Below, piece by piece: positions 27,948 to 61,545 of a stretch of DNA of 64,000 nucleotides. The stretch is taken from positions 124,001 through 188,000 of the forward strand of contig CALAJQ010000025.1 in assembly GCA_937922785.1 (NCBI GenBank), in the 5' to 3' direction. The notes under the pieces are model-generated. The model had not been told where the DNA came from and ran no database searches. It saw only the letters and a list, made by a program, of their open reading frames with translations. This stretch comes from an uncultured Acidimicrobiales bacterium (GTDB taxonomy: Bacteria; Actinomycetota; Acidimicrobiia; Acidimicrobiales; SZUA-35). Numbering within the stretch: position 1 is the stretch's first letter; every line of letters begins with the position of its first letter. The position numbers were made by a program, and so were the translations under genes.

Positions 27948-29477
27948 CTAGCGTTCAGATGTTATGGAAAACCGCGCGTAGTCAGCTGCGCTGACCAGGG
28001 CGTCGGCTAGTTGGTCGGTTAGCTCGTGGCGAAGATCTCTGCCATCGGACTTGTCGAAGAGATTGGTGCGCTCCCCTCGGTCGGCGGACAGATCGTACAG
28101 CTCGCCTTCGCCGGTTGAATAGCGGGTCATGCGGGCGTTGCCGGTTACGAGAGTGCGGGAGTGTTCGGGCACAGCGTTTGACCAAAGCCCGTAATCTGGC
28201 ACGTCTTCTTCGATCAACACATGATCACGGACTTCAGCTTGCGTGCCTTCAAGCAGTGGCACGAGACTGACTCCCTGCACTCCGTCATAGGACTCTGCCC
28301 CGACCAGATCAAGAATGGTCGAACCGATGTCAAGCGATGACGCTAGGGACGAGGTTCGAGCACCCGTTGCGCCAGGACGAGAGATCACCAAAGGCACTCG
28401 GGTTGTTCCCTCAAACGAGAAGCCACCTTTGAGCATGAATCCGTGGTCGCCGAACATGTCGCCGTGGTCAGCGGTGAAGACGATGATGGTCTCGTCAAGC
28501 TGACCGGAAGCCTCAAGCGCTGCCAACATCCGGCCTATCCCCTCGTCAATCATTTCTATCGATCCGTACTGGGCCGCCATTGCATCCTTCAACGCTGCCG
28601 CCCCAATCCGCATCGGACCCCGTGCCCCAGCATCGGCCGACATGTCTCGTAGGAAATCCGGCAGCTGATCAACCGGGTCGTGGAACGATTCAGGCAACTC
28701 CATGTCGGCCGGGTTGTGCCGGTCGAACCAGTCTCCGGGCGGGGTGAACGGATGATGGGGATCGGGGTAGGACGCAAACAAGAACCACGGTGTTTGGTCA
28801 TCACCGGCCGACTCGATGAACTCGACCGACCTTGAGGTTACAAACTCGGTGGAATGGAACTGTTCGTCATAGGCGGGCTTAGACACCTGCCACCAATGCT
28901 CGGAACGAAACAGCGCCGGCGAGTCCGGTCCGCCGCCAGCGGCCGCAGGGTCGAACCCGCGCTCGATCGCCCATGGAAGATGATGGCCGCCAACCGCCGA
29001 TCCGTGGCCAAGGCAGAACTCGGCCTCATCAAACCCGTAGAAGTTTTCCACTGGTCCTGGATCGCCGTTTACATAGCGGGCGAAGCTCTCAAGACCGTCC
29101 CAGTTTGGCCTGTCCGAGTCCCAGCCGACTGGGCTGCCCTCACCGTCAGCAAACATGTGAGCGGCGTGGATCTGAATGTGGGCCTTGCCGATGTGTTGGG
29201 TCCGATATCCGGCAGCAGACAGCCGCCTCACAAACGTGTTTGACCCCCACTCGAGTGACCGGTCATTAAACACAACGCCGTGCGCTGACGGAAGACGGCC
29301 GGTGAGAATACTGGACCGGTTCGGCATACACACCGGGTTAGCCACATAGGCTCGATCAAACACCGTTCCTCGGGCAGCCAACCCGTCGAGGTTGGGAGTC
29401 CGGACGACCTCGTTGCCTCCAAAGCCCACGTGGTCGGCTCGGTGTTGGTCGGTGCAGATGAATAGGACATTGTTCAT
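27948..29477 (-). CDS. Type I (formylglycine) sulfatase
   Basis: 509 residues of the alkaline-phosphatase-fold sulfatase family. DQHRADH near residue 10 gives metal ligands, and Cys50 in PVCMPNRSSILTGRLPSAHG is the CxPxR site converted to formylglycine. FTADHGDMFGDHGFML supplies the other metal ligands. No signal peptide, so it acts in the cytoplasm. It removes sulfate from an organic sulfate ester; substrate not set by sequence. A formylglycine-generating enzyme is not in the window. It is the last gene of the long minus-strand operon, six bases after an AtsA-like gene, and is a paralogue of the sulfatase at 48581. Confidence 0.9.
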   Translation of the reverse strand: MNNVLFICTDQHRADHVGFGGNEVVRTPNLDGLAARGTVFDRAYVANPVCMPNRSSILTGRLPSAHGVVFNDRSLEWGSNTFVRRLSAAGYRTQHIGKAHIQIHAAHMFADGEGSPVGWDSDRPNWDGLESFARYVNGDPGPVENFYGFDEAEFCLGHGSAVGGHHLPWAIERGFDPAAAGGGPDSPALFRSEHWWQVSKPAYDEQFHSTEFVTSRSVEFIESAGDDQTPWFLFASYPDPHHPFTPPGDWFDRHNPADMELPESFHDPVDQLPDFLRDMSADAGARGPMRIGAAALKDAMAAQYGSIEMIDEGIGRMLAALEASGQLDETIIVFTADHGDMFGDHGFMLKGGFSFEGTTRVPLVISRPGATGARTSSLASSLDIGSTILDLVGAESYDGVQGVSLVPLLEGTQAEVRDHVLIEEDVPDYGLWSNAVPEHSRTLVTGNARMTRYSTGEGELYDLSADRGERTNLFDKSDGRDLRHELTDQLADALVSAADYARFSITSER

Positions 29478-29483
29478 TAGCTG

Positions 29484-30341
29484 CTACCCCAGGGTGTAGG
29501 AGTCAAGGTCGTCGGCAACGACTAGTTCGCCCGTGTACCCACCGGCACGGACCTCGTCGGCGAACAGTTGCTTATCTTCTGGGCTCTTGGGCCCGGGGAT
29601 TAGGTGGGTGAGGATCAGAGTGGGGACTTGCAGCTCTTGAGCTTGCGCACCAATCAAGGGGGTGTCCGCGTGGTAGTCCATCACAAAATCACGGCCAAGG
29701 TTCTCGCCACGAACAGCTGAGAACCTCATCGCCTCATAAAGAAGAACGTCTGCTCCCTCGGCCAAGCGGGCAACTTCAGCGCAAACCTTTGTGTCACCGG
29801 TGATAGCGATTACGCCTTCGGGCGTTTCGATTCGGTAGCCGACCGCCGGGCTGACTGGTTCGTGCCGAACCTGACCGGCAAGCACCCGGACATCGCCTTC
29901 GGACCAAACCTCGACGACGTCTGTGGGGCCAGGTATCGGGAAGGCAATCAGATTATGACTTGGTTCTGTTGTTCGTCCGCTGTGCTGACGCCGTATGTCG
30001 AGGTCGTGAGTCCACGGGTCGAGCATCCGGTTTACGAAGTCGACACAGGGGCCCTCAGGCACGACGATTGGTAGAGGCTGGCTTTCGTCGCGGCGGTCAA
30101 CGTTCCATCTCGTAAGCACGAGGTCTTGAAGTCCGGTGAGGTGATCACTGTGATGATGCGTCGCAAAGAACGCCGTGAGCTTGGGTGGCCACACCCCCGC
30201 TCCAGACAAGCGTTGGACCGTGCTTCTACCCGCGTCGAACTGGAGTGTGATATCGCCGCGACGTACTAACGCGCCCGGACCAGCTCGGTTTGCGTCGGGC
30301 GTTGGAAACCCTGTTCCAGTAACGATCAGTTCGGTCTTCAT
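29484..30341 (-). CDS. AtsA-like MBL-fold hydrolase, paralogue 1
   Basis: 285 residues of the RNase Z-like metallo-beta-lactamase superfamily. TGTGFPTPDANRAGPGALV, LQFDAGRSTVQRL, THHHSDHLTGLQDLVLTRW, QVRHEP and the late ILTHLIP together match the arylsulfatase AtsA group of MBL proteins, whose founder from Pseudoalteromonas cleaves aryl sulfates with two zinc ions. The HxHxDH site is intact (HHHSDH). It shares its start with the FAH gene stop (TAATG at 30341). Desulfation is inferred; lactonase-type activity is possible. It is the most divergent of the three copies in this operon. Confidence 0.8.
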   Translation of the reverse strand: MKTELIVTGTGFPTPDANRAGPGALVRRGDITLQFDAGRSTVQRLSGAGVWPPKLTAFFATHHHSDHLTGLQDLVLTRWNVDRRDESQPLPIVVPEGPCVDFVNRMLDPWTHDLDIRRQHSGRTTEPSHNLIAFPIPGPTDVVEVWSEGDVRVLAGQVRHEPVSPAVGYRIETPEGVIAITGDTKVCAEVARLAEGADVLLYEAMRFSAVRGENLGRDFVMDYHADTPLIGAQAQELQVPTLILTHLIPGPKSPEDKQLFADEVRAGGYTGELVVADDLDSYTLG

Positions 30342-31210
30342 TAGTTGTCCAACTTCCTCGACTCGTCGATGACAGGGTTAGTGAGCGTACCGACGCCTGG
30401 GACAGACACCGAGATCTCGGCGCCAGGCGTAAGCCCACGGGGTGGGTCCTGGGCGTAACCAACTCCTCCCGGCGTTCCAGTAGCAATTACATCACCGGGT
30501 TCAAGCGTCGTAAACGTCGAGCAGTAGGTCACAATCGCTTCGATGTCGAAGATGAGTTGTGTGGTGGCTGCCGATTGCATCTCCTCACCGTCGAGGGTCG
30601 TCGTGAGGGTGAGGCCGTACGGATCCCCAACTTCGTCAGCGGTGACAATCCACGGGCCCCACGAGCCAGAGCGTTCGAAGTTCTTACCTGGAATGAACTG
30701 TGAGGTATGACGCTGGTAGTCACGCAAAGTGCCGTCCATAAGGCAGCTATAACCGGCGATTACGCCAAGAGCGTCGGACCGCTTCGCATACCGGCTGGCG
30801 CGGCCAATGACAATCGCCAGTTCGCCCTCGTAGTCGAACTTGGTACTTACCGGCGGGCGTTCTATCGGCTGGCCGTGGCCAACAAGAGAGGATGGAAAGC
30901 GAGTAAAGATCATCGGGTGCTCCGGGGCCTCGATGACGCGGTCAGACTCAGCCACGTGGGCGCGGTAGTTGGTTCCTACGCAGAGAATTCGCCGCGGCTG
31001 CAAAATTGGCGGCAGGTATTCGACATCGGCCAAAGCGAAGGCTTTCGCACCATCGGTGGCGCTGGCAATCTCGGCCCTGCCTTCGGCCGTCGTTGCCAGA
31101 CTCATCACCTGCCCTAGGTCCGAGGTGAGTACACGAAGGTCAAGCAGATAGTCCCCATCCACCACCCCGGGAACGACCTCTCTGTTAGCGAGAACGGTTG
31201 CAAGCTTCAT
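30341..31210 (-). CDS. Fumarylacetoacetate hydrolase (FAH) family protein
   Basis: 289 residues. LCVGTNYRAHVAES, the metal-binding FDYEGELAIVIG, GYSCLMDGTLRDYQ, GKNFERSGSWGPWIV and DVIATGTPGGVGYAQDPPRGL are textbook FAH-family motifs. Members hydrolyse acylpyruvates, decarboxylate 2-oxo dienoates or hydrate them in the lower part of aromatic degradation. Lying two bases after the intradiol dioxygenase, it probably handles a product of ring cleavage. The exact reaction is not set by the sequence. Confidence 0.88.
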   Translation of the reverse strand: MKLATVLANREVVPGVVDGDYLLDLRVLTSDLGQVMSLATTAEGRAEIASATDGAKAFALADVEYLPPILQPRRILCVGTNYRAHVAESDRVIEAPEHPMIFTRFPSSLVGHGQPIERPPVSTKFDYEGELAIVIGRASRYAKRSDALGVIAGYSCLMDGTLRDYQRHTSQFIPGKNFERSGSWGPWIVTADEVGDPYGLTLTTTLDGEEMQSAATTQLIFDIEAIVTYCSTFTTLEPGDVIATGTPGGVGYAQDPPRGLTPGAEISVSVPGVGTLTNPVIDESRKLDN

Positions 31211-31212
31211 AA

Positions 31213-32043
31213 CTATCCGGTTCTTTCCGGAGCCAACACGAAGTCAAACTCGCAAGTCCCATCGCTCATGTCGACCACAAGCGAGTCGCGAACACCAAAC
31301 ACCGCATCACCATCGATGTAGTTACTCTCGCTATCAAACAGGTGGGTGATCACACTGCGATACCCCGGCGCCGACACAACGAAATGAAAGTGCGCTGGCC
31401 TCCAGTTGTGACGTCCGTTGTTAAACAGCAATTCACCGCCTGGACCGTCATCGGGGATGGTGTAGTCGACCGGACGAACACCGTGGATTTCAAACCGACC
31501 ATCTGCTGCAGTTGTGTACACGCCGCGCATGTTCATCTCAGACTGAGCTTGATCTTGAACGTCGTAGAAACCGTTCGACGCTGTCTCCCACACATCCAGC
31601 TCGGCTCCTTCAATTGGGTTGCCGTCAAGGTCTAGCACCGACCCAGTTACAACAAGGTTCTGATCGGTGTCCATGACATCAACGATGATGCTCTCCCCCA
31701 TCTCTTTCCGGGGAGCTCCTTCTAAGTGGAAAGGGCCAAAGACCGTTGGTTCGGTGCCACCAGCATCACCGTGATTGAGCATCTCAACCAGCATGGATAC
31801 GCCGAGAGTGTCGGAGAGAAGAACAAACTCCTGACGCTCGTCGGTGCACAGCTGGCCAGCGCGCCTTAGCTCTTCGATGCCGCGGAACCATTCCTCGCGA
31901 GTTAAGCCAACTTCGGTTACAAACTCATGCATGTGGCGCACCAGCGATCGGGTGATCTCCGCCAAACGTTCATTTGGCGAGTCGTCGTAGCTCGCCAAAA
32001 CCTCGGCCAGGTGCTCTTCGGGAGTTACTCGTTTGGTGGTCAT
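31213..32043 (-). CDS. Intradiol ring-cleavage dioxygenase (catechol/hydroxyquinol 1,2-dioxygenase type)
   Basis: 276 residues. The N-terminal helical linker (ITRSLVRHMHEFVTEVGLTREEW) and GTEPTVFGPFHLEGAP are typical of catechol and hydroxyquinol dioxygenases. The four Fe(III) ligands are visible: Tyr in SNGFYDVQ, Tyr in PVDYTIPDDGP, and two His in RHNWRPAHFHF. The reaction is insertion of O2 between two adjacent ring hydroxyls to give a muconate. The long PVDYTIPDDGPGG loop favours hydroxyquinol over simple catechol, which is inference. ATG 32043 with AGGA upstream is preferred to TTG 32064. Confidence 0.88.
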   Translation of the reverse strand: MTTKRVTPEEHLAEVLASYDDSPNERLAEITRSLVRHMHEFVTEVGLTREEWFRGIEELRRAGQLCTDERQEFVLLSDTLGVSMLVEMLNHGDAGGTEPTVFGPFHLEGAPRKEMGESIIVDVMDTDQNLVVTGSVLDLDGNPIEGAELDVWETASNGFYDVQDQAQSEMNMRGVYTTAADGRFEIHGVRPVDYTIPDDGPGGELLFNNGRHNWRPAHFHFVVSAPGYRSVITHLFDSESNYIDGDAVFGVRDSLVVDMSDGTCEFDFVLAPERTG

Positions 32044-32064
32044 CGGATTAGTCCTATCTCTCAA

Positions 32065-33369
32065 TCATGCGTCGCCTAGCAGATTCTCTCGTAGGGTTGA
32101 TCCCGCATACCCTCGGCGAACTCGTCCTCGCCGCTGCAGTTCTGGGACAAGGTCATCCACGATGGTGGCATAACAATCTGGCGGATAGTAGGTGGGCGCA
32201 AACTGGAAACCATCGCAGTCGGTGAAGTCCTGGAGGGCCTCAAGCTCATCGGCGATGTCTGTGGCTGTACCTACGAATCGCGAGTCGGCCGCGAGATTCC
32301 GGAAGCGGCTAGCAAACTCGGCAAGTGTCGGGTTGTCGTCTTCAACTGCTTTCTCGAATGGGCCGCGCATGCCGGTGACCTGCGGCAAGATTTCCGACAG
32401 CGGAGTCTCTGGCTCTATATGGCTAAGGTCGATCCCTGCAGGCGGGCGCAGTGCAGCGATGTCGGCTGCATAGCCTGGCCGGGCCAAGATCTGTTCCTGG
32501 ATCGCCGTCGCCTCAGCGGCAGTTGGCGCCACGATCGGTCCATGGGTGAACACGATCTTAAGATCATAGGGATCCCGGCCGTGATCTGATGCCCTCGATC
32601 TAAGATCAGCCACCATGTCTCGGCGTTGCGTGTCGTTGGCAGCAGGAGCAAACACCATCTCAGCGTGTTTGGCTGCAAATGACATGCCAGCATTCGAAGC
32701 TCCAGCCTGGGTCAGGACCGGCTTGCCTTGTGGACCTGGCATCACACTGAGCGGGCCAGCACTCGAATGCCAACGGCCGTCGAAGTCAATCCGATGAACC
32801 TTGTTCGGGTCGGTCATGATTCGTTTCTCGTGGTCCATCACAAGCGCATCGGGCTCAAACGAATCCCAAAGCGCCTGAACCACATCCATATATTCGTGCG
32901 CTCGTTCATACCGTTCGTCGTGAGCGGGCAGCTCGACACCAAGGTTGTCGCCCTCGTGAGGATTGGTGGAGGTGACGATGTTCCAACCGATTCGACCTTC
33001 AGTGACATGGTCAAGCGTCTGCATCGTTCGGGCCAGCGCATAGGGCGCGGTGAACGTGGTTGACATGGTCACGACGAAACCGAGGTTGTTGGTTTTTGCT
33101 GCTAGCCGGGGCACGAGTACGGCCGGGTCGAGAAGAGGGAAGTGCATGCCGTATTTGACCGAGTCCGCATCACCACCGTAACCACCCATGTTGTCGGCAA
33201 AGAACAAGGCGTCAAAGGAACCGCGTTCAAGTGTGCTGCCAATTTCTTCCCAGTAGGCCATCTCCCACCATTGATGACGGATCTTGTCCTCTGGATACAC
33301 CCAGCTCAGGCGGGTTACCGGCGCCGGACAGAACAGGACAAAAGCGTTCAGGTGCATCTGTCTTGTCAT
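32065..33369 (-). CDS. LLM-class FMN-dependent monooxygenase (NtaA/DszA/DmoA family)
   Basis: 434 residues of the bacterial luciferase-like superfamily, NtaA/SnaA/DszA branch: MHLNAFVLFCPAPVTRLSWVYP at the N-terminus, FDALFFADN, LDHVTEGRIGWNIVTSTNPHEGDNLGV, PVLTQAGASNAGMSFAAKHAE, and a C-terminal DGFQFAPTYYP. Family knowledge: two-component monooxygenases using FMNH2 from a separate reductase to cleave C-N or C-S bonds. No reductase gene is next to it. ATG 33369 overlaps the stop of the SMP-30 gene by four bases. A longer in-frame reading runs into that gene and is rejected. Confidence 0.88.
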   Translation of the reverse strand: MTRQMHLNAFVLFCPAPVTRLSWVYPEDKIRHQWWEMAYWEEIGSTLERGSFDALFFADNMGGYGGDADSVKYGMHFPLLDPAVLVPRLAAKTNNLGFVVTMSTTFTAPYALARTMQTLDHVTEGRIGWNIVTSTNPHEGDNLGVELPAHDERYERAHEYMDVVQALWDSFEPDALVMDHEKRIMTDPNKVHRIDFDGRWHSSAGPLSVMPGPQGKPVLTQAGASNAGMSFAAKHAEMVFAPAANDTQRRDMVADLRSRASDHGRDPYDLKIVFTHGPIVAPTAAEATAIQEQILARPGYAADIAALRPPAGIDLSHIEPETPLSEILPQVTGMRGPFEKAVEDDNPTLAEFASRFRNLAADSRFVGTATDIADELEALQDFTDCDGFQFAPTYYPPDCYATIVDDLVPELQRRGRVRRGYAGSTLRENLLGDA

Positions 33370-34262
33370 TTGGCACTCCCGCTTCGCCACGGCCCGAGAC
33401 CGTCGGAATCCAATAGTGACGCCATTCGCCACAGCTCGCCGGACGCGCCCGTCACGTAGAGGTCTCGTTTCTCTTCGCCGCCGAAACAGAGATTGGAAGG
33501 ATTTGCCGGTGTCGGGAATTCGACGGCGAGCTGTCGGTCGGGTCCGAACACCGCAATGCGAGGACCCGGGCCGCTGTTTGTCCAGCCGCACGCCACCAGC
33601 AACGAACCGTCCGGAGCTGTGGCCATGCCATCAACACCTCGGTGATCTCCAAAGTCGTACATCACCTCATAGCGGCCCAGCGTGTGATCCGGTTCGATCT
33701 CATAAGCTCGGAGTTCACGGCATTCGGCAGGCGGAGGCATGTGGGTTTGGGCCACAAACAAGTTCTGGCGGTCGACACTAAGCAGCACGCCGTTCGGCCG
33801 GGTGGTGTCGGATGCGGCGCGGCGCAGATCCCAGCTGAAGTCGTCTCCATCTATGGGTGTGGCCACATAGACCGACTCATGGTCAAGTTCTAAGTCATCA
33901 CGGTTAGGGCCATATCTAGGGTCGCTAAACCAAATACGACCTTCGCCATCGATTGAAAGGTCGTTCGGGCTGTTCAGGCGTCTGCCTTCGAAACTGTCGG
34001 CCACGACGGTGCGGGTTCCGTCGGCCTCAAAGCGGATAACCGACCGACCTTCGTCTTGGCAGGCGTACAGCCGACCTTGTGAGTCAAGCGCCAGCCCGTT
34101 CGCCTTGCCGGTTCCTTCGTGCAGGACCACGGTCTCGCTGGTACGGGGATCAAACGCCATAATCCGGCTCGAGGGAATGTCAGTAAAGATGATCCGCGAG
34201 CCATCCCAGACTGGGCCTTCGGTGAAAGAGAACGGCCCTGCGACGGTCTCGAAGCCAGTCAT
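33366..34262 (-). CDS. SMP-30/gluconolactonase family protein
   Basis: 298 residues, six-bladed beta-propeller. Metal ligands are recognisable: Glu in FSFTEGPVWD, Asn in RLNSPNDLSIDG, Asp in RGVDGMATAPDG, plus IWFSDPRYG and NGVLLSVDRQNLFVAQT. The family hydrolyses lactones, including sugar and aromatic-pathway lactones, with Ca2+ or Zn2+. In this operon it may open a lactone formed after ring cleavage (inference). It overlaps genes on both sides by four bases. Confidence 0.86.
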   Translation of the reverse strand: MTGFETVAGPFSFTEGPVWDGSRIIFTDIPSSRIMAFDPRTSETVVLHEGTGKANGLALDSQGRLYACQDEGRSVIRFEADGTRTVVADSFEGRRLNSPNDLSIDGEGRIWFSDPRYGPNRDDLELDHESVYVATPIDGDDFSWDLRRAASDTTRPNGVLLSVDRQNLFVAQTHMPPPAECRELRAYEIEPDHTLGRYEVMYDFGDHRGVDGMATAPDGSLLVACGWTNSGPGPRIAVFGPDRQLAVEFPTPANPSNLCFGGEEKRDLYVTGASGELWRMASLLDSDGLGPWRSGSAK

Positions 34263-35137
34263 ATGCTCGCCCTAAATACCGAACCGTTCTCGAGCACGAC
34301 TGAGTCCAAATCGTCGCAAACCATAATCTCACCCTGGTAGCCGCCTTCTCTAACCTCATCGACATAGGCCTGGCGATCCGCTTCTGACTTAGGCGCAGGA
34401 ATGAGGTGGGTGAGCATGAGCATCGGAACTTCAAGCTCGGCCATCTGTTTGCCAATCAACCGAGTGTCAGCGTGATAGGCCATGATGTACTGCTTGTCTG
34501 GTGGTCGCTTGGCGATCACGTCCATCCGCAACGCTTCATAAACCACGACGTCTGCTCCTCGGGCCAACTCGGCCATCTCATCGCAGACCACGGTGTCACC
34601 GCTGATCGCCACAACACCATCTGGGGTTTCAACGCGGTAGCCGACTGCCCCAACAATGGGCTCATGACGCACCTGACCAGCAATCACTCGAACGTCGCTG
34701 CTGGACCAGACTTCGGTTAGGACGTCGGGGACGTCAAAGCCCCTGATGTCAATCTTGGGCTTGGGCTCACGCATGTTGTGTAGCGCTCGCACCTCGAGGT
34801 CGTCATCCCAAAGGTCAAGCATGCGTTCGCAAAAGCGGGTTGTGGGTCCGTTCGGCGCAAAGATTGGCAACCGGCCAAACTCGTCGTAGACGTCCATGGT
34901 CCAATGCGACAGCACTAGGTCTTGCAAACCGACAAGGTGATCAGAGTGATAATGAGTAAGAAACAACGCCGTTAGATCTGCGGGTGAGGAACCAGCGGCA
35001 AACAGGCGAGGAACAGTCGCACGGCCAGCATCAAATTGCAGGTGAGTTTCGGCGTGACAAACAAGCGCGCCTGCTCCGGCCCGGTCAGCCGTTGCCAGTG
35101 GCGTTCCTGTGCCTGTAACAGTGACTTTGGTCGTCAT
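34259..35137 (-). CDS. AtsA-like MBL-fold hydrolase, paralogue 2
   Basis: 292 residues. TGTGTPLATADRAGAGALV, LQFDAGRATVPRLFAAG, THYHSDHLVGLQDLVLSHW and MLTHLIPAPK give the same AtsA-like signature as the other two copies, with intact zinc ligands. It is closest to the adjacent paralogue 3, from which it is separated by a four-base overlap, pointing to tandem duplication. Likely a cytosolic sulfatase or related hydrolase with its own substrate preference. Confidence 0.8.
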   Translation of the reverse strand: MTTKVTVTGTGTPLATADRAGAGALVCHAETHLQFDAGRATVPRLFAAGSSPADLTALFLTHYHSDHLVGLQDLVLSHWTMDVYDEFGRLPIFAPNGPTTRFCERMLDLWDDDLEVRALHNMREPKPKIDIRGFDVPDVLTEVWSSSDVRVIAGQVRHEPIVGAVGYRVETPDGVVAISGDTVVCDEMAELARGADVVVYEALRMDVIAKRPPDKQYIMAYHADTRLIGKQMAELEVPMLMLTHLIPAPKSEADRQAYVDEVREGGYQGEIMVCDDLDSVVLENGSVFRASI

Positions 35138-36015
35138 GAGGGTTCACCTTCAGAGTTGGTTCGGTCCAGGGTGATCTTGTCGAGGTCGTTGCAGACAATC
35201 ACCTTCCCGGTGTAGCCACCGGCTCGCACGTCGGTCTCAAAACCGTCACCGCCTTCCTGATTCACCGGAGGAATCAGGTGAGTAAGCATCAACATTGGAA
35301 TCTCAAGCGATTGCATCTGTTCACCGATCCCGCGTGCGTCAGCGTGATACTCGGTGATGTAGTGCATGGCTGGTGGAAAATTGTTCAGAACGAACTCGCT
35401 ACGCATTGCTTCATACACAACAACATCTGCGCCTTGGGATAGCTCTGCAACCTCTTTGCAAACGACTGTGTCACCGGTGATCACAACTACACCGTCGGGT
35501 GTCTCAACCCGATAGCCCACCGCGCCCTCGACGGGTTCATGTCTCACCTGTCCGGCAAGAACCCGCACATCTCCGCGTGACCAAACTTCGGTCGGAGTGT
35601 CGGGGACGTCAAAACCGACGATGTCAAACTTCGGATGCGGCTGTCGCTCGTCACCGTGCGCGGACCTGACGGCCAAATCGTCGCCCCAGGCATCAAGCAT
35701 TCGTTGGCAGAATCGTTCCGTTGCTCCGTTTGGCGCGACAACGTCAAACCGGCCGTAGTTGTCTTCGAAGTCGTGTACCCAATGTGACAGCACAATGTCC
35801 TGCAAACCAACGACGTGATCAGAGTGGTAGTGGGTCAGAAAGATTGCGCTTAGGTCCTTGATGTGGGTGCCGGTGGCAGTCATTCGAGCCAGAGTGTTGC
35901 GGCCGGCATCAAACTGGAGATTCAGATCCCCGTAGCGAATAAGAACGCCCGGGCCGGCAATCTCGGCTTGGACGAGCGGCATGCCTGTACCGGTGATTAT
36001 CACCTCGGTTGTCAT
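35134..36015 (-). CDS. AtsA-like MBL-fold hydrolase, paralogue 3
   Basis: 293 residues. TGTGMPLVQAEIAGPGVLI, LQFDAGRNTLARMTATG, THYHSDHVVGLQDIVLSHW, ITGDTVVC and MLTHLIPPVN match paralogue 2 along the length. The usual RAGP at the start has become EIAGP, otherwise the metal site is complete. It overlaps the arylsulfotransferase stop and the paralogue 2 start by four bases each, so the stoichiometry of these products is probably coupled. Confidence 0.8.
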   Translation of the reverse strand: MTTEVIITGTGMPLVQAEIAGPGVLIRYGDLNLQFDAGRNTLARMTATGTHIKDLSAIFLTHYHSDHVVGLQDIVLSHWVHDFEDNYGRFDVVAPNGATERFCQRMLDAWGDDLAVRSAHGDERQPHPKFDIVGFDVPDTPTEVWSRGDVRVLAGQVRHEPVEGAVGYRVETPDGVVVITGDTVVCKEVAELSQGADVVVYEAMRSEFVLNNFPPAMHYITEYHADARGIGEQMQSLEIPMLMLTHLIPPVNQEGGDGFETDVRAGGYTGKVIVCNDLDKITLDRTNSEGEPS

Positions 36016-37793
36016 TGGTTTAGAACCATTTCCAGCCCTGGGTGGTCAGCCGCTATTGGCACGGCTCTAAAGGTCCGGCCAGGGCCGCCAGGCAGAAAGT
36101 CCAGAACGGTCTCACCTCCTGGAGTTACCTCACGAATACGTTTGTTGTAACCAAGTGCGGTAACGGTGTTTCCGTTCGGGCGTCGTCGGGCGCCCGACAT
36201 AAACGGTGAAAACCAGTCCTTGGATCCGTCGGCGTTGTAGTCCCACACGATCTCTGCACCATTCATTGGGTCGTCCTCATCCCAAGCCCAGACGCCTTCG
36301 GCATCAACTGGGAGTTTCACTTCCAGGATCTCGGAATACCCACCATTCATGAACGACAGTCGTTCCGGGCTTGGGTTCGGGGAAGAGTCCGCTGGCCGCC
36401 TTGACCCGTTGTTGAATATGAGCACGTCACCGGCACGAGGAACATCGTCTGGAATCCAGTGGATGTCGTGTTGCCAATCGAGCACCTTGTCCGTGGCTGG
36501 CCCTGCGCCGTAGGCCGACGTGTTCCCCCATCGATAGAGCAAGTCGCCTTTCTCGCCTTTGGCCTCGTCGGTCGTTGTGGCATGGTCGATAACCCACAGT
36601 TCGCCGTGCATAGCCGAGCTCAACATGATCTGGTCACGCTGTGGGTCATAGCTGACCGTGTTGACGTGCATGATCTGACCCATGTTGAATCGGTAGCTCG
36701 GGTACTTCGTGTAGTTAATATCGATCTTGCGGCAACCGGGACCGAGCGGACCGAAATGTGGCTTCGCTGGATCCTTGTCCTGTACAAGGTGATCGGCCGA
36801 TCGCCACTCCCACACAACCCGTGTATCCCCAGTCTCTAGGTTGGGTTCGAGTTCAAGAATTGTCTCGGTCCACCAGCGCTGAAGGTCCGGCGGTCTCATC
36901 AACACTTCGGTTGGTTGGGTTTCCCACCCAAATTCAGCCGCCTCTGCAAAAGTCTTGCCTTCGTACACGGTCACCAGAATGTTGCCGTTAGGCATCGGCT
37001 CAAAGTCATGATGCATTACACGAACACCGGGCTCAAACAACCGGTACTGCCACAGCAGCGTGCCATCAGGTTCTTCGATGCTGATAATGCCGTGTGCTCC
37101 CACTGGGAAGCAGAGCACTTCGAGCCACAGATCAGGGCAGCTGGTCCGTATTAGCCGGCCGTCGTCTCGCAAGTAAGCCGTTACAGTTTCAGACGCATGG
37201 TTGCGGTGTGGCCAGTGATGTACACGCGCTCCGTCTGGCGCCTGCAGAAAGAGATCTTTCCCCACCCAAACGTCACCCGCGTTGCAGTGCTCGTACACAA
37301 GTAGGTAGCCATCGTCCTGGCGACTGTCCGAGCCTGGCATGACGGCACCGTTCGGCTCATCTTGGTAGTTTCGGAGAAGATCGAAGTGTCTTAATGTTTC
37401 AGCTGGACCACTGTGGGCCTGAGCCAGAATCGGATTCCACTTCGGACGATCGTCGGTGGGTAACAGGTGACCTCGATCGAGACGATCTAGCCGCCGTAAC
37501 CGATTCGGTGCATCGGCGATGTCTTCGGCCGTGATGATGCCGTCAGCATCCTGATCGAGGATGCGGACGATCGCGCTGCGGCGTTCGCCGCCCGGCCAAC
37601 GGAACGGTCCACCAATCTCATCAGCGCATAGTTCTCCGTCTCTGTTTAGATCGAGCGCTTGGAGCGACTCCGACGCTGCCGCAATTTCTTCGCTGGAGAG
37701 AACATCGTCACCGTCTCGGTCAAGAGCTCTCCAGATTGTTCCGACGCGCCGAGCTTCGGCGCCGAGAATCGCCTTCGCTTCGTCGTTAGTCAC
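36012..37793 (-). CDS. EF-hand arylsulfotransferase (ASST) family protein
   Basis: 593 residues. The N-terminal 110 residues contain three EF-hand loops: DRDGDDVLSSEE, DLNRDGELCADE and DQDADGIITAED. The remaining 480 residues form a beta-propeller of the arylsulfotransferase family: HHDFEPMPNGNILVTVYE, WQHDIHWIPDDVPRAGDVLIFNNG, FSPFMSGARRRPNGNTVT. Family knowledge: ASST moves sulfate from one phenol to another without PAPS. No signal peptide is seen, unlike classical periplasmic ASST, and the start is GTG immediately after the ABC ATPase stop (TAAGTG). Some family members have lost transferase activity, so the reaction is likely but not certain. Confidence 0.8.
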   Translation of the reverse strand: MTNDEAKAILGAEARRVGTIWRALDRDGDDVLSSEEIAAASESLQALDLNRDGELCADEIGGPFRWPGGERRSAIVRILDQDADGIITAEDIADAPNRLRRLDRLDRGHLLPTDDRPKWNPILAQAHSGPAETLRHFDLLRNYQDEPNGAVMPGSDSRQDDGYLLVYEHCNAGDVWVGKDLFLQAPDGARVHHWPHRNHASETVTAYLRDDGRLIRTSCPDLWLEVLCFPVGAHGIISIEEPDGTLLWQYRLFEPGVRVMHHDFEPMPNGNILVTVYEGKTFAEAAEFGWETQPTEVLMRPPDLQRWWTETILELEPNLETGDTRVVWEWRSADHLVQDKDPAKPHFGPLGPGCRKIDINYTKYPSYRFNMGQIMHVNTVSYDPQRDQIMLSSAMHGELWVIDHATTTDEAKGEKGDLLYRWGNTSAYGAGPATDKVLDWQHDIHWIPDDVPRAGDVLIFNNGSRRPADSSPNPSPERLSFMNGGYSEILEVKLPVDAEGVWAWDEDDPMNGAEIVWDYNADGSKDWFSPFMSGARRRPNGNTVTALGYNKRIREVTPGGETVLDFLPGGPGRTFRAVPIAADHPGLEMVLNQ

Positions 37794-38852
37794 TTAGACC
37801 TCGACGCAGCCTTTGGCTTGGGACTTAATGAACTCAACCACAGATTCGCCACCGAGCGCTGGCCCCGACGTATGAAGATGACACCGAGCAACCCCGCCAT
37901 GATGCACGACCGATGTTGGCGGCATTTCCTCACGACATATGTCCATTGCAACGGGACACCGATTCTCAAAGGGACATCCAGGCGGAAGATTCGCTGGTGA
38001 CGGAGGCTCGGCTGTCTTGAATGACTGGCGTAGGAGCCTGCGCTTTGCCTGCTCTCGCGGATTTGGGAACGGAATCGAGGCAACCAACATCTCGGTATAT
38101 GGGTGGGTTGGCGCCTGGTATACAGCCTCGGCGGCCCCACTCTCAACTAGATAGCCCAAGTACATGACACCAACCTCATGGCTCATGTGGCTGACAACCT
38201 CGAGGTCGTGGGCGATGAAGAGAAAAGCAACACCGCGTTCACGTTGGATGTCCTGTAGCAGGTTGATCACCTGGCTCTGGATCGACACATCGAGTGCGCT
38301 AGTCGCTTCATCGGCGATCACTAGGTCGGGCTCGACTGCAAGAGCCCGGGCTATCGAGATCCGCTGCCGCTGTCCGCCAGACATCTCGTAGGGGTACCGG
38401 TCTAGGTAGTCGCGACCAAGACCAACCAGATCGAGTAAGGCACCAACAAGATCTCGACGTTCGTTACCGGGTTTAACTCCACGATGTCGGGTTATCGGGT
38501 CACCGACGATGGTTTCAGTGGTGTGCACCTGATTAAGGGACGAGAACGGGTCCTGTAGCACGGCCTGCACGCGCTTGCGGAAGCCGAGCTCGGCAGAGCG
38601 CTGAACGTGGGTGACATCAGTGCCATCGAGATGAATTGAACCGGCGTGGATATCTACCAGCTGAAGAATGGCGCGGGCCACAGTTGACTTACCCGAACCC
38701 GACTCACCGACAAGCCCGAACGTTCGCTGCGAGTCGATCTTGAACGACACATCGTTGACAGCCTTCACCGTAGGAGCCGCAGCGCCGAAGAGCTTGCTTC
38801 GTCCTCCAAAATGAACAGCCAACCGATCAACTGACAACAGCGAATCTGTCAT
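37794..38852 (-). CDS. Oligopeptide-type ABC transporter ATP-binding protein (OppF-like)
   Basis: 352 residues. Walker A GESGSGKSTVARA, signature EMSGGQRQRISIARAL, Walker B DLVIADEAT, and the C-terminal oligopeptide-transporter domain with its iron-sulfur-like cysteines (PPGCPFENRCPVAMDIC). It pairs with the permease-ATPase fusion, overlapping it by four bases, to supply the second nucleotide-binding half of the importer. Confidence 0.92.
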   Translation of the reverse strand: MTDSLLSVDRLAVHFGGRSKLFGAAAPTVKAVNDVSFKIDSQRTFGLVGESGSGKSTVARAILQLVDIHAGSIHLDGTDVTHVQRSAELGFRKRVQAVLQDPFSSLNQVHTTETIVGDPITRHRGVKPGNERRDLVGALLDLVGLGRDYLDRYPYEMSGGQRQRISIARALAVEPDLVIADEATSALDVSIQSQVINLLQDIQRERGVAFLFIAHDLEVVSHMSHEVGVMYLGYLVESGAAEAVYQAPTHPYTEMLVASIPFPNPREQAKRRLLRQSFKTAEPPSPANLPPGCPFENRCPVAMDICREEMPPTSVVHHGGVARCHLHTSGPALGGESVVEFIKSQAKGCVEV

Positions 38853-40816
38853 AGAGTTACCTCAGTCCATTCAGAAGCAAGCAGTTCTCTCAGCTCACCG
38901 TGGTGATGGCACCGCACAACCTCGCCAGGGGCAAGAACTTCAAGGCCAGGCAATTCGTCTCGACAACGATCGGTGGCGTGTTCGCATCGAGGCGCAAATC
39001 GACAGCCGGCAGGCCAGTCGGTAGGTGATGGAACTACACCTGGAATCACGGCCAACGGCGAATCGTCGCCGTGGTGATTCTGCGGCATCGTGTCAAGGAG
39101 GGCCTTGGTGTACGGATGACGAGGCCGAAGAAAGATGTCATCGACCGCTCCACCTTCAACAACCTGGCCGCCATACATGACAATTACCCGATCGGCGACT
39201 TCGGCAATCACACCAAGGTCATGGGTGATAATGACAATGCTCGTACCGCGCTCTTCTTGGATCTCCATAAGAAGGTCCAAGATCTGACCCTGAACTGTTA
39301 CGTCGAGAGCAGTTGTCGGTTCATCAGCGATCAACAATTTGGGGCTACACGCCAGGGCCATTGCAATTCCGACACGTTGTGCCATGCCACCAGAGAATTC
39401 GTGCGGATACTGGTCTATTCGGCGGCGCGGATCAGGCACCTTGACCTCGGCGAGCAATTCGACCGCTCGCTCGCGAGCCGCCTTCTTGTCCATATCGGTA
39501 TGTAGCAGAAGGGGCTCCATGATCTGCCGGCCGACCTTCAGGGCCGGGTTAAGCACAGCAATCGGCTCCTGGAAGATAACTCCGATGTCCTTGCCTCTGA
39601 TCTTCTGCCACTCTCGCTCGGAAATCGACGTAACGTCCTGGCCGTCAAACTTGACCGACCCACGGGTCATACGGCCCGGTGCAGGAGTTAGCCCTAGAGC
39701 CGACAACACTGTCATGCTTTTGCCAGAGCCGGACTCTCCAACGACACCGAGCGTCTCACCCGGTTGAACTGCCATCGACACGCCATTCAAGATCTGAACT
39801 GGGTCGCCTCCACCAGTGGGAAACTCGACGTCCATCGTACGGATCGAGAGCAATGAGTCTTCACGGTGAGGCCGGTCGGTCGGCGTTATCGACACTCGCT
39901 TGGAAACGGTGAGAGCGTTGCTGGTTTTGTCGCGACCAAGAGAGTCTCGTATCGCGTCGCCAAGAAGATTAAAGGAAAGAACTGTGAGCACCAAAGCACC
40001 AGCCGGCGGAACAATCTGCCAGATTCCGACGCGACGGAATTCAACCCGAGATCGAGACAGCATGACACCCCAATCGGGATCGTCCAGATTGGCGCCCACA
40101 CCGAGAAAGCTCAGGGTCGCGCCGATCAGGATGATTGCGCCAGCGATTATCGCAAACTGAACAATCAGAGAGGGCAGCAGATTGGGCGCGATGTAGCGCC
40201 GCAATATCGTCGGCGTAGACAAACCCGTGATGCGAGCGGCGTCGACGTAGAGCTCTTCCTTCTCTGCCAAGGTGACTGCGCGGGTCAGCCGTGTGAACCG
40301 GGTTGACATTGCTATGCCGACACCAACCATTGCGCTGTTTAGAGATGGAGTCAGGACAATGACGACAGCAAAAGCCAAGAGAACGATGGGTAGCGAGAAG
40401 ATGACGTCGTTGAACCACATGATCGTCCGGTCGATCCGACCGCCTCTCCAGCCCGAGAACAAGCCAAGTGGTACGCCGATGCCGACCGCAATCGACATGG
40501 CAATGAATATCGACTGAAAGGCGAAACCAGCGCCGTGAATGACACGGCTGAAGTAATCGCGCCCGAATCCGTCGGTTCCGAGCCAGTACTCGCCATTGGG
40601 TGTGAGGAAGATGTCTTGCAAGGTGGGATCACCCTTAAAGGGGTCCTTGGTTGCCACAAGTTCGGGCCAGATCCATGAGAGAACCAAGAACGCAATCCAC
40701 AGCATCGAAAGCACAGCAAGCGGATTGCGAAACATGCGCCTCCAAAACCTGCGGCGCTGGGACTGCGGCTTGTCAGGCAGTGCTTCGGCTTCTACCGGAG
40801 AATGGGCGGCTGTCAC
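38849..40816 (-). CDS. Fused ABC importer subunit: DppC-like permease plus DppD-like ATPase
   Basis: 655 residues joining two normally separate proteins. Residues 1-310 are a peptide-type permease with an N-terminal cytoplasmic arm (WRRMFRNPLAVLSMLWIAFLV), GTDGFGRDYFSRVIHGA and several membrane helices. Residues 330-655 are an ATPase with Walker A GESGSGKSMTVLSALG, signature EFSGGMAQRVGIAMAL and a C-terminal cysteine cluster (CRFAPRCEHATDRC). Such fusions exist in actinobacteria but are less common than separate genes. Four-base overlaps on both sides tie it to the rest of the importer. Confidence 0.9.
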   Translation of the reverse strand: MTAAHSPVEAEALPDKPQSQRRRFWRRMFRNPLAVLSMLWIAFLVLSWIWPELVATKDPFKGDPTLQDIFLTPNGEYWLGTDGFGRDYFSRVIHGAGFAFQSIFIAMSIAVGIGVPLGLFSGWRGGRIDRTIMWFNDVIFSLPIVLLAFAVVIVLTPSLNSAMVGVGIAMSTRFTRLTRAVTLAEKEELYVDAARITGLSTPTILRRYIAPNLLPSLIVQFAIIAGAIILIGATLSFLGVGANLDDPDWGVMLSRSRVEFRRVGIWQIVPPAGALVLTVLSFNLLGDAIRDSLGRDKTSNALTVSKRVSITPTDRPHREDSLLSIRTMDVEFPTGGGDPVQILNGVSMAVQPGETLGVVGESGSGKSMTVLSALGLTPAPGRMTRGSVKFDGQDVTSISEREWQKIRGKDIGVIFQEPIAVLNPALKVGRQIMEPLLLHTDMDKKAARERAVELLAEVKVPDPRRRIDQYPHEFSGGMAQRVGIAMALACSPKLLIADEPTTALDVTVQGQILDLLMEIQEERGTSIVIITHDLGVIAEVADRVIVMYGGQVVEGGAVDDIFLRPRHPYTKALLDTMPQNHHGDDSPLAVIPGVVPSPTDWPAGCRFAPRCEHATDRCRDELPGLEVLAPGEVVRCHHHGELRELLASEWTEVTL

Positions 40817-41769
40817 TTTTCCAACCTCACCTTCGGGTTGAGGAATCCGTAGCTGATGTCAACCAGCAGGTTCACCGTCGCAACGGCCAAACCAACCACG
40901 ATCATGCCCCCTTGGAGCACAGTTACGTTCCGGTTGACGATTGACGTGACCAGCAACTCGCCCATGCCCCTTATGCCAAAGACAACTTCTACCGCAACAG
41001 TGAGACCGATTGCAGCGGCGGCTCTGAACCCAATGACAGTGATTGTCGGGATCATGGCGTTTGGAAGTGCGTGGCTAACAATGAGTTTTGAGGACCGAAC
41101 GCCACGCGCCCTAGCGGCGAGAACATAACGAGACTGCAGCGCATTCGCCATAGAGCTACGAAGCTGACGCTGAACAATGGCGAGCGTCGGCAGAGCTAGC
41201 GCTATGCCAGGGAGCGTGATCGACTTGAGCCATCCAGATGTCGATTCGCCCATCGACACATAGCCAACTGGATCGAACCAGCCCCAGCGGACCGCCAGCC
41301 ACCACGACAACAGCATGCCGAGGATGAAACCGGGAGCAGCGATGACGCTCGCTGCGACAATCGACAAGGTTCGGTCAAGGAGCCCGCCCGGACGAATCGC
41401 GGCTGAGATTCCGAAAAACATTCCCAAAGAAATGCCAATCAGCAAACTGAGCGACACGATGCTCAATGTGGGCCAGATCCGCTCGCCGATTAGGTCACCG
41501 ACCAGCTGATTGCGGTTAGACAGTGAGGTTCCAAGATCGCCCTGAACAACATCACCGAGCCAGTTGACAAACCTTGTTGGCAATGGATCGTCAAGGCCAA
41601 GGGCGGCCTCAACTTCAGTGACACACTCCTGGGTTGCTCCCTCACCACATACAGAAACCGCTATCGAACCGCGGCCTTCCATGGCCACCGATATGCCGAA
41701 CGTAAGCACCGCAATAGCTAGCAGCAGTGGGATGGTCGCCAAAACTCTGAATGCGATGTATTTCGCCAT
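40813..41769 (-). CDS. ABC importer permease (DppB-like)
   Basis: 318 residues with six predicted membrane helices. The N-terminus YIAFRVLATIPLLLAIAVLTF and the C-terminal RARGVRSSKLIVSHALPNAM (the EAA loop contacting the ATPase) are typical of peptide/nickel-type permeases. It lies 98 bases after the solute-binding lipoprotein gene and overlaps the fusion gene. Confidence 0.9.
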   Translation of the reverse strand: MAKYIAFRVLATIPLLLAIAVLTFGISVAMEGRGSIAVSVCGEGATQECVTEVEAALGLDDPLPTRFVNWLGDVVQGDLGTSLSNRNQLVGDLIGERIWPTLSIVSLSLLIGISLGMFFGISAAIRPGGLLDRTLSIVAASVIAAPGFILGMLLSWWLAVRWGWFDPVGYVSMGESTSGWLKSITLPGIALALPTLAIVQRQLRSSMANALQSRYVLAARARGVRSSKLIVSHALPNAMIPTITVIGFRAAAAIGLTVAVEVVFGIRGMGELLVTSIVNRNVTVLQGGMIVVGLAVATVNLLVDISYGFLNPKVRLEK

Positions 41770-41867: not shown

Positions 41868-43538
41868 TTAACCCTTGGTCACGCCGTGTGGCCAGTAAGC
41901 GATTGGAATACCACCGGTGTGGTTGACGCCCTGCACGTCGGCTGGGTCATAACCAATGCTGGTTGTGAGCACGTTGTTGATAATGAAGATGCACTCTTCG
42001 ATCAGAATCTTCCAAGCAGCAGCCACGTCGGCCTCGCCGTCTTCGAAGCTCTTGGTTCGTGCAGCGGCAACCAACTCATCTACACCATCAGGCGAAACTC
42101 CAGACGGGTTGAACGCTGCGGAACCTGTTCGAGCGATCAACGACATCAAGGCGTTTGGCTCGTTGTAAGCAATGATCTGAACTGGGTAGGTCCCCTTCGC
42201 CAGGTTCGCAAACATCTCACCAGCGCTGTTTGGCTCGAGAACCTCGTTCTCCATGGTGATGCCAAGCTCAGCGAGGGCTGTTGCGAACGCCGAGGATGTA
42301 GCTGGCCAGAAGCCACCTCGAATGTGACCGTTCTTGAATGTGAATGGCTCCTCGCCAGTCGAATCGAATAGTGCCTTCGCTGCCTCCAGGTCGAAGTCAG
42401 GCGCTGCCAGATCGTCGATGTAGGCATAGTCGGCGGGACTAGCAGCGAACTGCTTGATTGCCGAAACCGGGTCGTTGTTTCCAGCGGCCTGGATGCCCTC
42501 ACGGTTTAGTGCGCCAGCCATTGCACAGCGCACGTCCTTGTTAGCAAGTTGAGGAATCTGTTCTCCCTGCCAGTCAGTTACAACAAAGCCGATACGAACA
42601 GTTGTGTTCTGACTTACTGCCGGCGCAGCGTCGGCCTGAGCGGTATTCACTACTGCCACGTCAAACTGGCCAGCATTCAGACCGTCAAGGTTGGCTTGAA
42701 TGTCACCAGTGGAAGTGATGGTGACGGTCTCAAGGCCAACTAGTCCTGGCTGCCAGTAATCCTCAAACGCCACGAGTTCGATTGTTGTCAGATCGGTACT
42801 GGTGTTGGAGATCATGTAGGGCGAGGTTCCCATCGGTGACGCTCCAGCGTTACCGAGCGAGTCTGGCGAGACCATGAAGCCCGAGTGACGAATAAGACCG
42901 CTCAGAAGCAGCGCTTCACCCGGTGCGTTGAGGTTGAACTTAACGGTTAGATCGTCAACGACTTCGACAGAATCGACCACAGCCATTTGGTTAGCTACCG
43001 GCGGAAGAACCTCAGGCGGGCCAGCGGTCTTGATGTGTTCAATGTTGGCCTTGACGGCTTCGGCATTAAACGCTGCGCCGTCGTGGAAGACCACGCCGTC
43101 ATGCAGGAAGAAAGTGATTTCGTTGCCGGCTTCGTTGGACTCCCAGCATTTCGCCAACCAAGGAACAACCGTGCCCTCAACTGATTGGCGGACCAAACCT
43201 TCATACATCCACCCGTAGTAGGCGAAGCTTGCGGGGCCCTGTTCATCGTGTGGGTTCAACGTGCCCAAGGAAATCGCAATTGCATTCTGAAGATCTCCGC
43301 TCGGGGCGTAAGTTCCACGATCAAGCTCGACCTCAGACGCACAGTTTGCGGTCTCATCAACTTCAACGTTGCCTAGTGCCTCGTCATCTTCGGGTTCGTC
43401 GGCAGGCGCAGCTGTAGTAGCAGTAGTTTCTGCACCGTTATCTGTGTCGGCGTTGTCATCACCGTCACCACAGGCCGCAGCGACCATCGCCATGGCTAGC
43501 AACACGGCAAGCAGCCGCATCAGACTCGAGTTTCGCAT
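41868..43538 (-). CDS. Family 5 extracellular solute-binding lipoprotein
   Basis: 556 residues. MRNSSLMRLLAVLLAMAMVA leads to a lipobox AAAC, followed by a Thr/Asp-rich linker (DNADTDNGAETTATTA) and a SBP_bac_5 body (GTLNPHDEQGPASFAYYGWM, YEGLVRQ, WLAKCWES, FHDGAAFNAEAVKANIEHI). ATG 43538 is preceded by AAAGGGG; longer in-frame readings begin in non-coding sequence. Family 5 binders take peptides, nickel, opines, sugars and other organics; here the operon points to an aromatic sulfate or its conjugate (inference). First gene of the 13-gene operon. Confidence 0.9.
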   Translation of the reverse strand: MRNSSLMRLLAVLLAMAMVAAACGDGDDNADTDNGAETTATTAAPADEPEDDEALGNVEVDETANCASEVELDRGTYAPSGDLQNAIAISLGTLNPHDEQGPASFAYYGWMYEGLVRQSVEGTVVPWLAKCWESNEAGNEITFFLHDGVVFHDGAAFNAEAVKANIEHIKTAGPPEVLPPVANQMAVVDSVEVVDDLTVKFNLNAPGEALLLSGLIRHSGFMVSPDSLGNAGASPMGTSPYMISNTSTDLTTIELVAFEDYWQPGLVGLETVTITSTGDIQANLDGLNAGQFDVAVVNTAQADAAPAVSQNTTVRIGFVVTDWQGEQIPQLANKDVRCAMAGALNREGIQAAGNNDPVSAIKQFAASPADYAYIDDLAAPDFDLEAAKALFDSTGEEPFTFKNGHIRGGFWPATSSAFATALAELGITMENEVLEPNSAGEMFANLAKGTYPVQIIAYNEPNALMSLIARTGSAAFNPSGVSPDGVDELVAAARTKSFEDGEADVAAAWKILIEECIFIINNVLTTSIGYDPADVQGVNHTGGIPIAYWPHGVTKG

Positions 43539-43662
43539 TTGGTCCCCTTTAAGATCCGTCCGTGAGTCGTTCACGAACGTTAGTAATTTCCCGTCACCAT
43601 CATCGACGCTGGTGTGACGATTGTCAACAACTGCGAAAGTCACCTGCAAAAGGGGGCGAAGT

Positions 43663-44199
43663 TCAGCCGTTATTCAACTTTGCTTGAAGCACAGCGGCCC
43701 AGTCCTGGGAAGGTGGGGGCGGGTCGGGCAGCCCATTGTCACGCATTTCAACGTTAACGCGATCCAATAGTTCGCTCAGCTGAGAGACCTCATCCTTGCT
43801 CAGGATCGCAAAAACGTGGTCGTAGACAATGCGCTCGCGGGCGTTGATGTCTGACCCAATCTCTTGCCCTGCTTTGGTTGATGTCAACATCGTGCGGCGC
43901 CGATCCTCTGGATCGGGATTGGCCTCGACCAGACCCTTCTTTTTCAGTCCCGCAACTGCCCGGCTCACGTTCATCACGTTGAGTCCCTGGCTTAGCGCAA
44001 TTTCGCCTTGGGAGACTCCAGGCTGAAGAAGGACCGACCGAAGCACTCGCCACTCAGGCAAGCTAACGCCAAAGGGTTGTTCTGTGCGGCGAAAGAAGTG
44101 TCCCGAAATCATGTTACTGAACGCGTGAATGCGTTGGCCGAGAAGCCGCTCAGATGTCAGGTGTTGTTGAGTTGACGCCGAGTCATCGATGTTGGTCAT
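43663..44199 (-). CDS. MarR family transcriptional regulator
   Basis: 178 residues with winged-helix motifs: PEWRVLRSVLLQPGVSQGEIALSQGLNVMNVSRAVAGLKKKGLV followed by the wing NPDPEDRRRTMLTSTKAG. MarR proteins commonly sense phenolic compounds, which fits the genes on both sides. The start is placed at ATG 44199; an upstream in-frame start would run through the promoter region. It faces the MFS gene across an 86-base intergenic region with an imperfect palindrome, and is transcribed toward the ABC importer operon, 124 bases ahead of it. Confidence 0.88.
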   Translation of the reverse strand: MTNIDDSASTQQHLTSERLLGQRIHAFSNMISGHFFRRTEQPFGVSLPEWRVLRSVLLQPGVSQGEIALSQGLNVMNVSRAVAGLKKKGLVEANPDPEDRRRTMLTSTKAGQEIGSDINARERIVYDHVFAILSKDEVSQLSELLDRVNVEMRDNGLPDPPPPSQDWAAVLQAKLNNG

Positions 44200-44227
44200 C
44201 GACCACGATGTTAGAAGGCAGGACGAA

Positions 44228-44252
44228 ATTGTGCGCCATCTAGCCACACAAT
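44228..44252. promoter_or_regulatory. Likely MarR operator
   Basis: A 25-base imperfect palindrome, beginning ATTGTG and ending CACAAT, with 8 of 12 pairs complementary. ATTG...CAAT ends are common in MarR sites. Its location between the divergent marR and MFS genes suggests shared control. Confidence 0.55.
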
Positions 44253-45799: not shown

Positions 45800-47085
<1,286 letters not shown>

Positions 47086-61494: not shown

Positions 61495-61545
61495 GGCCGA
61501 AGTATTGCAGATCACGGGCCGAGCAGCAGGCCCGGCCAGTAACAC

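Follow-up and report, generated by a model that had tools for sequence, protein, structure and literature searches.

Known ASST-fold proteins and the present locus

The physiological roles of most arylsulfotransferases (ASSTs) are poorly understood (PMC13426309). The enzyme of E. coli CFT073 (EcASST; PDB 3elq, 3ets, 3ett and 4p07) is periplasmic, carries an N-terminal beta-sandwich and needs DsbL/DsbI, and its active-site residues, including Arg374 and Thr501, are reported to be conserved in all published ASSTs (2026 review, PMC13426309). Cpz4, the caprazamycin sulfotransferase of Streptomyces (PDB 9kf4/9kf6), is actinobacterial and PAPS-independent (PMC13426309). A further relative, WP_331736608.1 from Streptomyces sp. 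NBC_01001, has no signal peptide and is encoded in an ABC cassette directly behind a substrate-binding protein (SBP) of the NrtA/SsuA type; this gene (L056, positions 1228-2337, on a Streptomyces plasmid) lies between the SBP gene and an ABC permease gene.

The window, i.e. the whole stretch of 64,000 nucleotides analysed here, is from an uncultured Acidimicrobiales bacterium (assembly GCA_937922785.1, contig CALAJQ010000025.1, positions 124,001 to 188,000) and includes a gene for an ASST-like protein, here called EF-ASST. EF-ASST has the propeller fold in common with EcASST but, unlike EcASST, it has EF-hands, has neither a signal peptide nor an N-terminal beta-sandwich, and has other residues in place of Arg374 and Thr501. 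Cpz4 is the closest solved fold, though at only 16 % identity and with no EF-hands seen in the match. As proposed below, EF-ASST would, like Cpz4, be an actinobacterial PAPS-independent enzyme, but its setting is catabolic whereas that of Cpz4 is biosynthetic. WP_331736608.1 shares the lack of a signal peptide, but has no EF-hands, consists of a short propeller only, is paired with a sulfonate-type SBP and, by eye, has Met at the His356 position.

The gene and its N-terminus

The gene (36012..37793, minus strand, as are all features within it) begins with GTG and encodes a protein of 593 aa. Residues 254-550 match PF05935 (Arylsulfotrans) in Pfam with E=3e-14 and 53.1 bits, exceeding the curated cut-off of 24.2 and placing the protein in the ASST superfamily. 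The matches to EF-hand_1 (26.0, cut-off 25.4) and EF-hand_6 (26.7, cut-off 25) are both just over threshold. The original prediction, made from this DNA by itself, was of an ASST-family propeller with three EF-hands and no signal peptide, and Pfam matches, loop motifs, hydropathy and the codon preceding the start all agree with it.

There is no hydrophobic stretch within the first 60 residues. The GTG, which has a GAGG Shine-Dalgarno-like motif just 5' of it, is immediately preceded in the same frame by the TAA with which the ABC ATPase gene ends, an abutment that had also been noted originally. Hence, no N-terminal extension is possible, and an overlooked signal peptide is ruled out in the window gene. 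The same possibility was considered for the Acidimicrobiales relatives described below. In L002, it is ruled out by an in-frame stop two codons ahead of the ATG, and in L003, L004, L020 and L023 the upstream open frame is only short or non-hydrophobic. EF-ASST thus lacks the export trait of EcASST, and a cytosolic location, as first suggested, is the one to be inferred from every sequence criterion at hand.

Relatives and a probable loss of export

Three Acidimicrobiales MAGs contain close orthologues that are 78-82 % identical (L002, L003 and L004; L008 and L009 share their contigs with L002 and L004, respectively). Orthologues are rare, with one other genome among those sampled from the family and one other full-length copy among 397 sampled genomes of the order. 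Two further EF-ASST paralogues, L020 and L023, are in genome G741. There are also 16 gammaproteobacterial EF-hand members and, judged from the sequences, the EF-hand/ASST fusion is a family and not unique to the window gene.

All 16 of the gammaproteobacterial proteins have signal-like hydrophobic N-termini, as called by hydropathy and by eye without a dedicated predictor, and none of the six Acidimicrobiales members does. In a tree built from the propeller columns, the six signal-less Acidimicrobiales proteins form one clade (support 98/97), and the signal peptide and the EF domain need to have changed only once each. As the outgroup, which has no EF-hands, also has signal-like N-termini, the simplest reading is that export was lost once, in an Acidimicrobiales ancestor. 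The original prediction had allowed that a signal peptide might have been missed in related proteins; this concern does not apply to the window gene or the other Acidimicrobiales members, but the gammaproteobacterial members do appear to have one.

Signal-less ASST relatives without EF-hands occur in other Actinomycetota (WP_331736608.1 and proteins from G691 and G701), so the predicted lack of a signal peptide is by itself not new for ASST relatives. A tblastn search against plasmids revealed distant relatives only (24-39 %). The gammaproteobacterial MAGs G743 (L005) and G744 (L006) contain 11 and 7 PF05935-type paralogues, respectively, an unusual expansion; many of these are EF-hand-fused with signal-like N-termini, and in G743 not all have EF-hands. 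Searches of an open-access library of papers yielded no relevant work on EF-hand ASSTs and nothing usable on an intracellular arylsulfotransferase of pseudomonads, and no substrate or activity was found for any EF-hand member.

The EF-hand module

Residues 1-125 form helical EF-hand units in both structure models. Three canonical loops follow the EF-hand rule (12 residues between two helices, acidic ligands being at positions 1, 3, 5 and 12) in the sequence and in the model, namely loop 1 (residues 25-36, DRDGDDVLSSEE, 37686..37721), loop 2 (residues 48-59, DLNRDGELCADE, 37617..37652) and loop 3 (residues 80-91, DQDADGIITAED, 37521..37556). A fourth EF-hand-like unit (residues 103-114, 37452..37487), absent from the original list, is degenerate here, but the paralogues L020 and L023 as well as the gammaproteobacterial members have it in canonical form. 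The dN of the EF region is ~0.15-0.19 with dS saturated, comparable to the propeller and pointing to purifying selection. Because of this, and because the side-chain ligands of loops 1 and 3 are identical in four orthologues, metal binding has probably been kept.

When the isolated EF domain was compared to known structures using Foldseek, there was no match below E 0.001, and the listed matches were nearly all EF-hand proteins or constructs. The best but weak match was lanmodulin (8fns, E 0.012, probability 1.00). Lanmodulin is selective for lanthanides, has Asp at position 9 of its loops and spaces these loops compactly. EF-ASST resembles lanmodulin and other compact EF-hand proteins in spacing, its paired loops (residues 25-114) being ~12 residues apart, but its EF module is fused to an enzyme, and position 9 of loops 1-3 is Ser, Cys or Thr in the four orthologues. 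As the Asp of lanmodulin is missing, calcium is our first guess for the metal. A degenerate DNA search for the loop 1 sequence returned no match, and this search carries no weight.

The propeller and its active site

An AF2 model built with 32 homologues (pLDDT 88, pTM 0.89) has helix-loop-helix units over ~125 residues followed by an ASST-fold beta-propeller (residues 146-593, 36015..37358), which is the architecture anticipated in the original prediction. The best structural matches to the model are Cpz4 (9kf6, Z 32.5 over 340 residues, 3.2 A) and EcASST (3ets, 3elq and 4p07, Z ~26), and other propellers among the matches listed have a Z of at most 21.1. Comparing a propeller profile to PDB sequences also identified EcASST as best and Cpz4 as next. 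A single-sequence PDB search yielded almost only EF-hand matches with E > 0.1 and was uninformative for the propeller.

In the alignment, H376 (36666..36668) and N378 correspond to His356 and Asn358 of EcASST, and H442 (36468..36470), which is within a QHD motif aligned to both 3elq and 9kf4, corresponds to the sulfated histidine, His436. H262 (37008..37010) was assigned as the equivalent of His252 from the H-x5-PNG spacing; the HMM alignment slips one blade there, making this a softer assignment. The Arg374 position is occupied by A394 (36612..36614), in a register backed by L010, which has kept Arg there, and Thr501 is aligned with M532. Hence, four of the six active-site residues of EcASST are present. 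Seven residues (H261, H262, H376, N378, R421, H442 and R537) are identical in 32/32 homologues. R421, the arginine of an RWG/RLG motif, is common to the family and Cpz4, as is the QHD with the sulfo-histidine, whereas R537 is Leu in Cpz4.

The absence of catalytic residues, such as the His and Arg of the ASST active site, had been named at the outset as a finding that would count against the prediction. The three His and the Asn equivalents are invariant, and it is the Arg374 and Thr501 equivalents that have been replaced, so this objection holds in part only. Given these two replacements, the active site is on alignment evidence a variant one, and transfer of the classical kind may be weaker or may have changed to hydrolysis.

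The gene neighbourhood

EF-ASST is within a tight operon in which several gene joints overlap by 4 nt. On the 5' side, and also on the minus strand, are genes for a MarR-type regulator (43663..44247), an SBP_bac_5 substrate-binding protein (41868..43649), ABC permease B (40813..41769), permease C fused to an OppD-type ATPase (38849..40816) and the OppF/DppF-type importer ATPase (37794..38852) whose stop abuts the EF-ASST start. The importer is of the oligopeptide type; its permease C/ATPase fusion is a single polypeptide of 655 aa, and these domains are also fused in L002 and L003. On the 3' side, still on the minus strand, the start of the gene for a first MBL-fold enzyme (35134..36015; best PDB match 8gyg 'Arysulfatase', E=8e-13) overlaps the EF-ASST stop by 4 nt. 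This is followed by genes for a second MBL-fold enzyme of the same type (34259..35137), an SMP-30/gluconolactonase-like lactonase (SGL; 33366..34262), an NtaA/DmoA-family FMN monooxygenase (32065..33591, with the true start probably downstream of the called one), an intradiol ring-cleavage dioxygenase of the catechol/hydroxyquinol type (31213..32064), a fumarylacetoacetate hydrolase family protein (FAH; 30341..31210), a third MBL-fold enzyme (29484..30341) and a type I sulfatase with the formylglycine motif CMPNR (27948..29477). Beyond the regulator are LigA and LigB of the protocatechuate 4,5-dioxygenase type (45800..47085, plus strand; protocatechuate 4,5-dioxygenase and class III extradiol models over cut-off), a TauE/SafE-type exporter (47087..47800, plus strand) and a second type I sulfatase (CQPNR, 48581..50146, minus strand). 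The C-x-P-x-R motif is present in both sulfatases, which, like the neighbouring MBL-fold enzymes and dioxygenases, have no signal peptide. Two of the 11 sulfatases in the 4.9 Mb genome are within 11 kb of the EF-ASST gene, an association with a chance of about twice in a thousand by our own Poisson estimate.

The core order, SBP, permease B, permease C/ATPase, ATPase, EF-ASST, first MBL, second MBL, (third MBL), SGL, recurs in L002 and L003; in L002, further genes separate the second MBL gene from SGL. The L023 copy has an alkyl-sulfatase-like MBL enzyme, a sulfatase, an FMN monooxygenase and an MFS gene as neighbours, and the L020 copy is near a 4-oxalomesaconate tautomerase (over cut-off). 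A sulfatase-like ORF and LigB are within 10 kb in L005, and a gentisate dioxygenase (over cut-off) and FAH are near the L052 copy, though such sulfatase and ring-cleavage company is not found at every gammaproteobacterial locus (L051, L053). The coupling to the importer that had been suggested from the abutting start is therefore a conserved link, but one that extends to a whole operon for sulfate-ester and aromatic catabolism and not to the importer only. The cluster appears to import sulfated compounds, remove the sulfate and open the aromatic rings.

Elsewhere in the window, the 907-aa product of 58822-61545 has a nucleotide cyclase domain and, after it, an NB-ARC/STAND-type ATPase, and the product of 22419-23852 has DUF2510, GmrSD_C nuclease-like and Lamin Tail domains together. 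Two long ORFs, 23935-25686 (583 aa) and 54987-56546 (519 aa), have no Pfam match at 1e-4.

Possible functions

EF-ASST probably takes part in breaking down sulfated phenolics within the cell. The reading we favour, with some confidence, is that it is a cytosolic, PAPS-independent sulfuryl-transfer enzyme with the PF05935 (ASST/Cpz4) fold acting on imported aryl sulfates; catalysis, the direction of transfer and the class of substrate are what we infer. In the proposed scheme, the SBP and ABC importer would take up a sulfated (poly)phenol, and the propeller would move the sulfuryl group onto H442 in a ping-pong reaction, freeing the phenol, and then hand it on to water or a phenolic acceptor. 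The released phenol would be passed on for hydroxylation and ring cleavage by the FMN monooxygenase, intradiol dioxygenase, LigAB, FAH and lactonase, while leftover or relocated sulfate esters would be removed by the formylglycine sulfatases and MBL-fold arylsulfatase-like enzymes encoded alongside. The EF-hand module would occupy the place of the EcASST beta-sandwich. It may be an inheritance from exported ancestors that were exposed to higher extracellular calcium, and in the cytosol could be a structural domain stabilised by metal or a low-level calcium sensor. In a more elaborate version, which is in our opinion doubtful, EF-ASST would be a sulfuryl-relay enzyme of the cytosol, gated by a metal (calcium or, conceivably, a lanthanide) and rebuilt in its active site, that couples aryl sulfate import to desulfation and ring cleavage.

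One point against a transferase is that the operon already includes redundant sulfatases, which leaves a specific need for a transferase unexplained. Indeed, three MBL-fold enzymes and two formylglycine sulfatases accompany EF-ASST in a degradative operon, and the Arg374 and Thr501 equivalents are lost across the whole EF clade while H442 is retained. As these are residues of the acceptor/sulfuryl pocket, their replacement could allow water to attack the sulfo-histidine, making EF-ASST a hydrolase, i.e. a sulfatase on an ASST propeller. However, Cpz4, an active transferase, is also without the Thr501 residue in the aligned stretch, so loss of Thr501 alone does not imply hydrolysis. We know of no PF05935 member that is a dedicated sulfatase, and consider a hydrolase a real but unlikely alternative.

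Alternatively, EF-ASST could have a protective role, using imported aryl sulfate as the donor to sulfate toxic catechols or phenols arising from ring cleavage, with the product exported by a neighbouring MFS pump. Catechol is the favoured acceptor of cluster I ASST enzymes (PMC13426309), and MFS genes adjoin both the window locus (44286-45731) and the L023 copy. However, the operon content is mostly desulfating and degradative, and sulfation would work against ring cleavage, making protection less probable still than hydrolysis. Finally, EF-ASST could be a scaffold, as the original prediction also suggested, or an adaptor that serves the importer in a calcium-dependent manner without catalysing a reaction. 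In favour of this, EF-hands often mediate interactions, the EF-ASST gene starts where the ATPase gene stops, and the Arg374 and Thr501 equivalents have been lost. It is nevertheless very improbable, given that the active-site His and Asn do not vary among 32 diverged homologues of both the exported and the signal-less type, and that no ABC importer was found beside the exported gammaproteobacterial relatives examined.

Implications

EF-ASST is a new form within the ASST superfamily, EF-hand-fused and signal-less, with an altered active site and encoded in a sulfate-ester/aromatic catabolic operon. It represents an ASST active site without two of the residues conserved in all published members, and its family is a natural comparison of one EF-hand enzyme with and without an export signal. 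The gene context gives the ASST fold a concrete putative role, in the breakdown of imported sulfated aromatics, and supplies testable candidate genes for how sulfated phenolics, zosteric acid or sulfated algal phenols for example, are turned over. If the metal-gated relay reading were true, the ASST fold would have a catabolic function in the cytosol.
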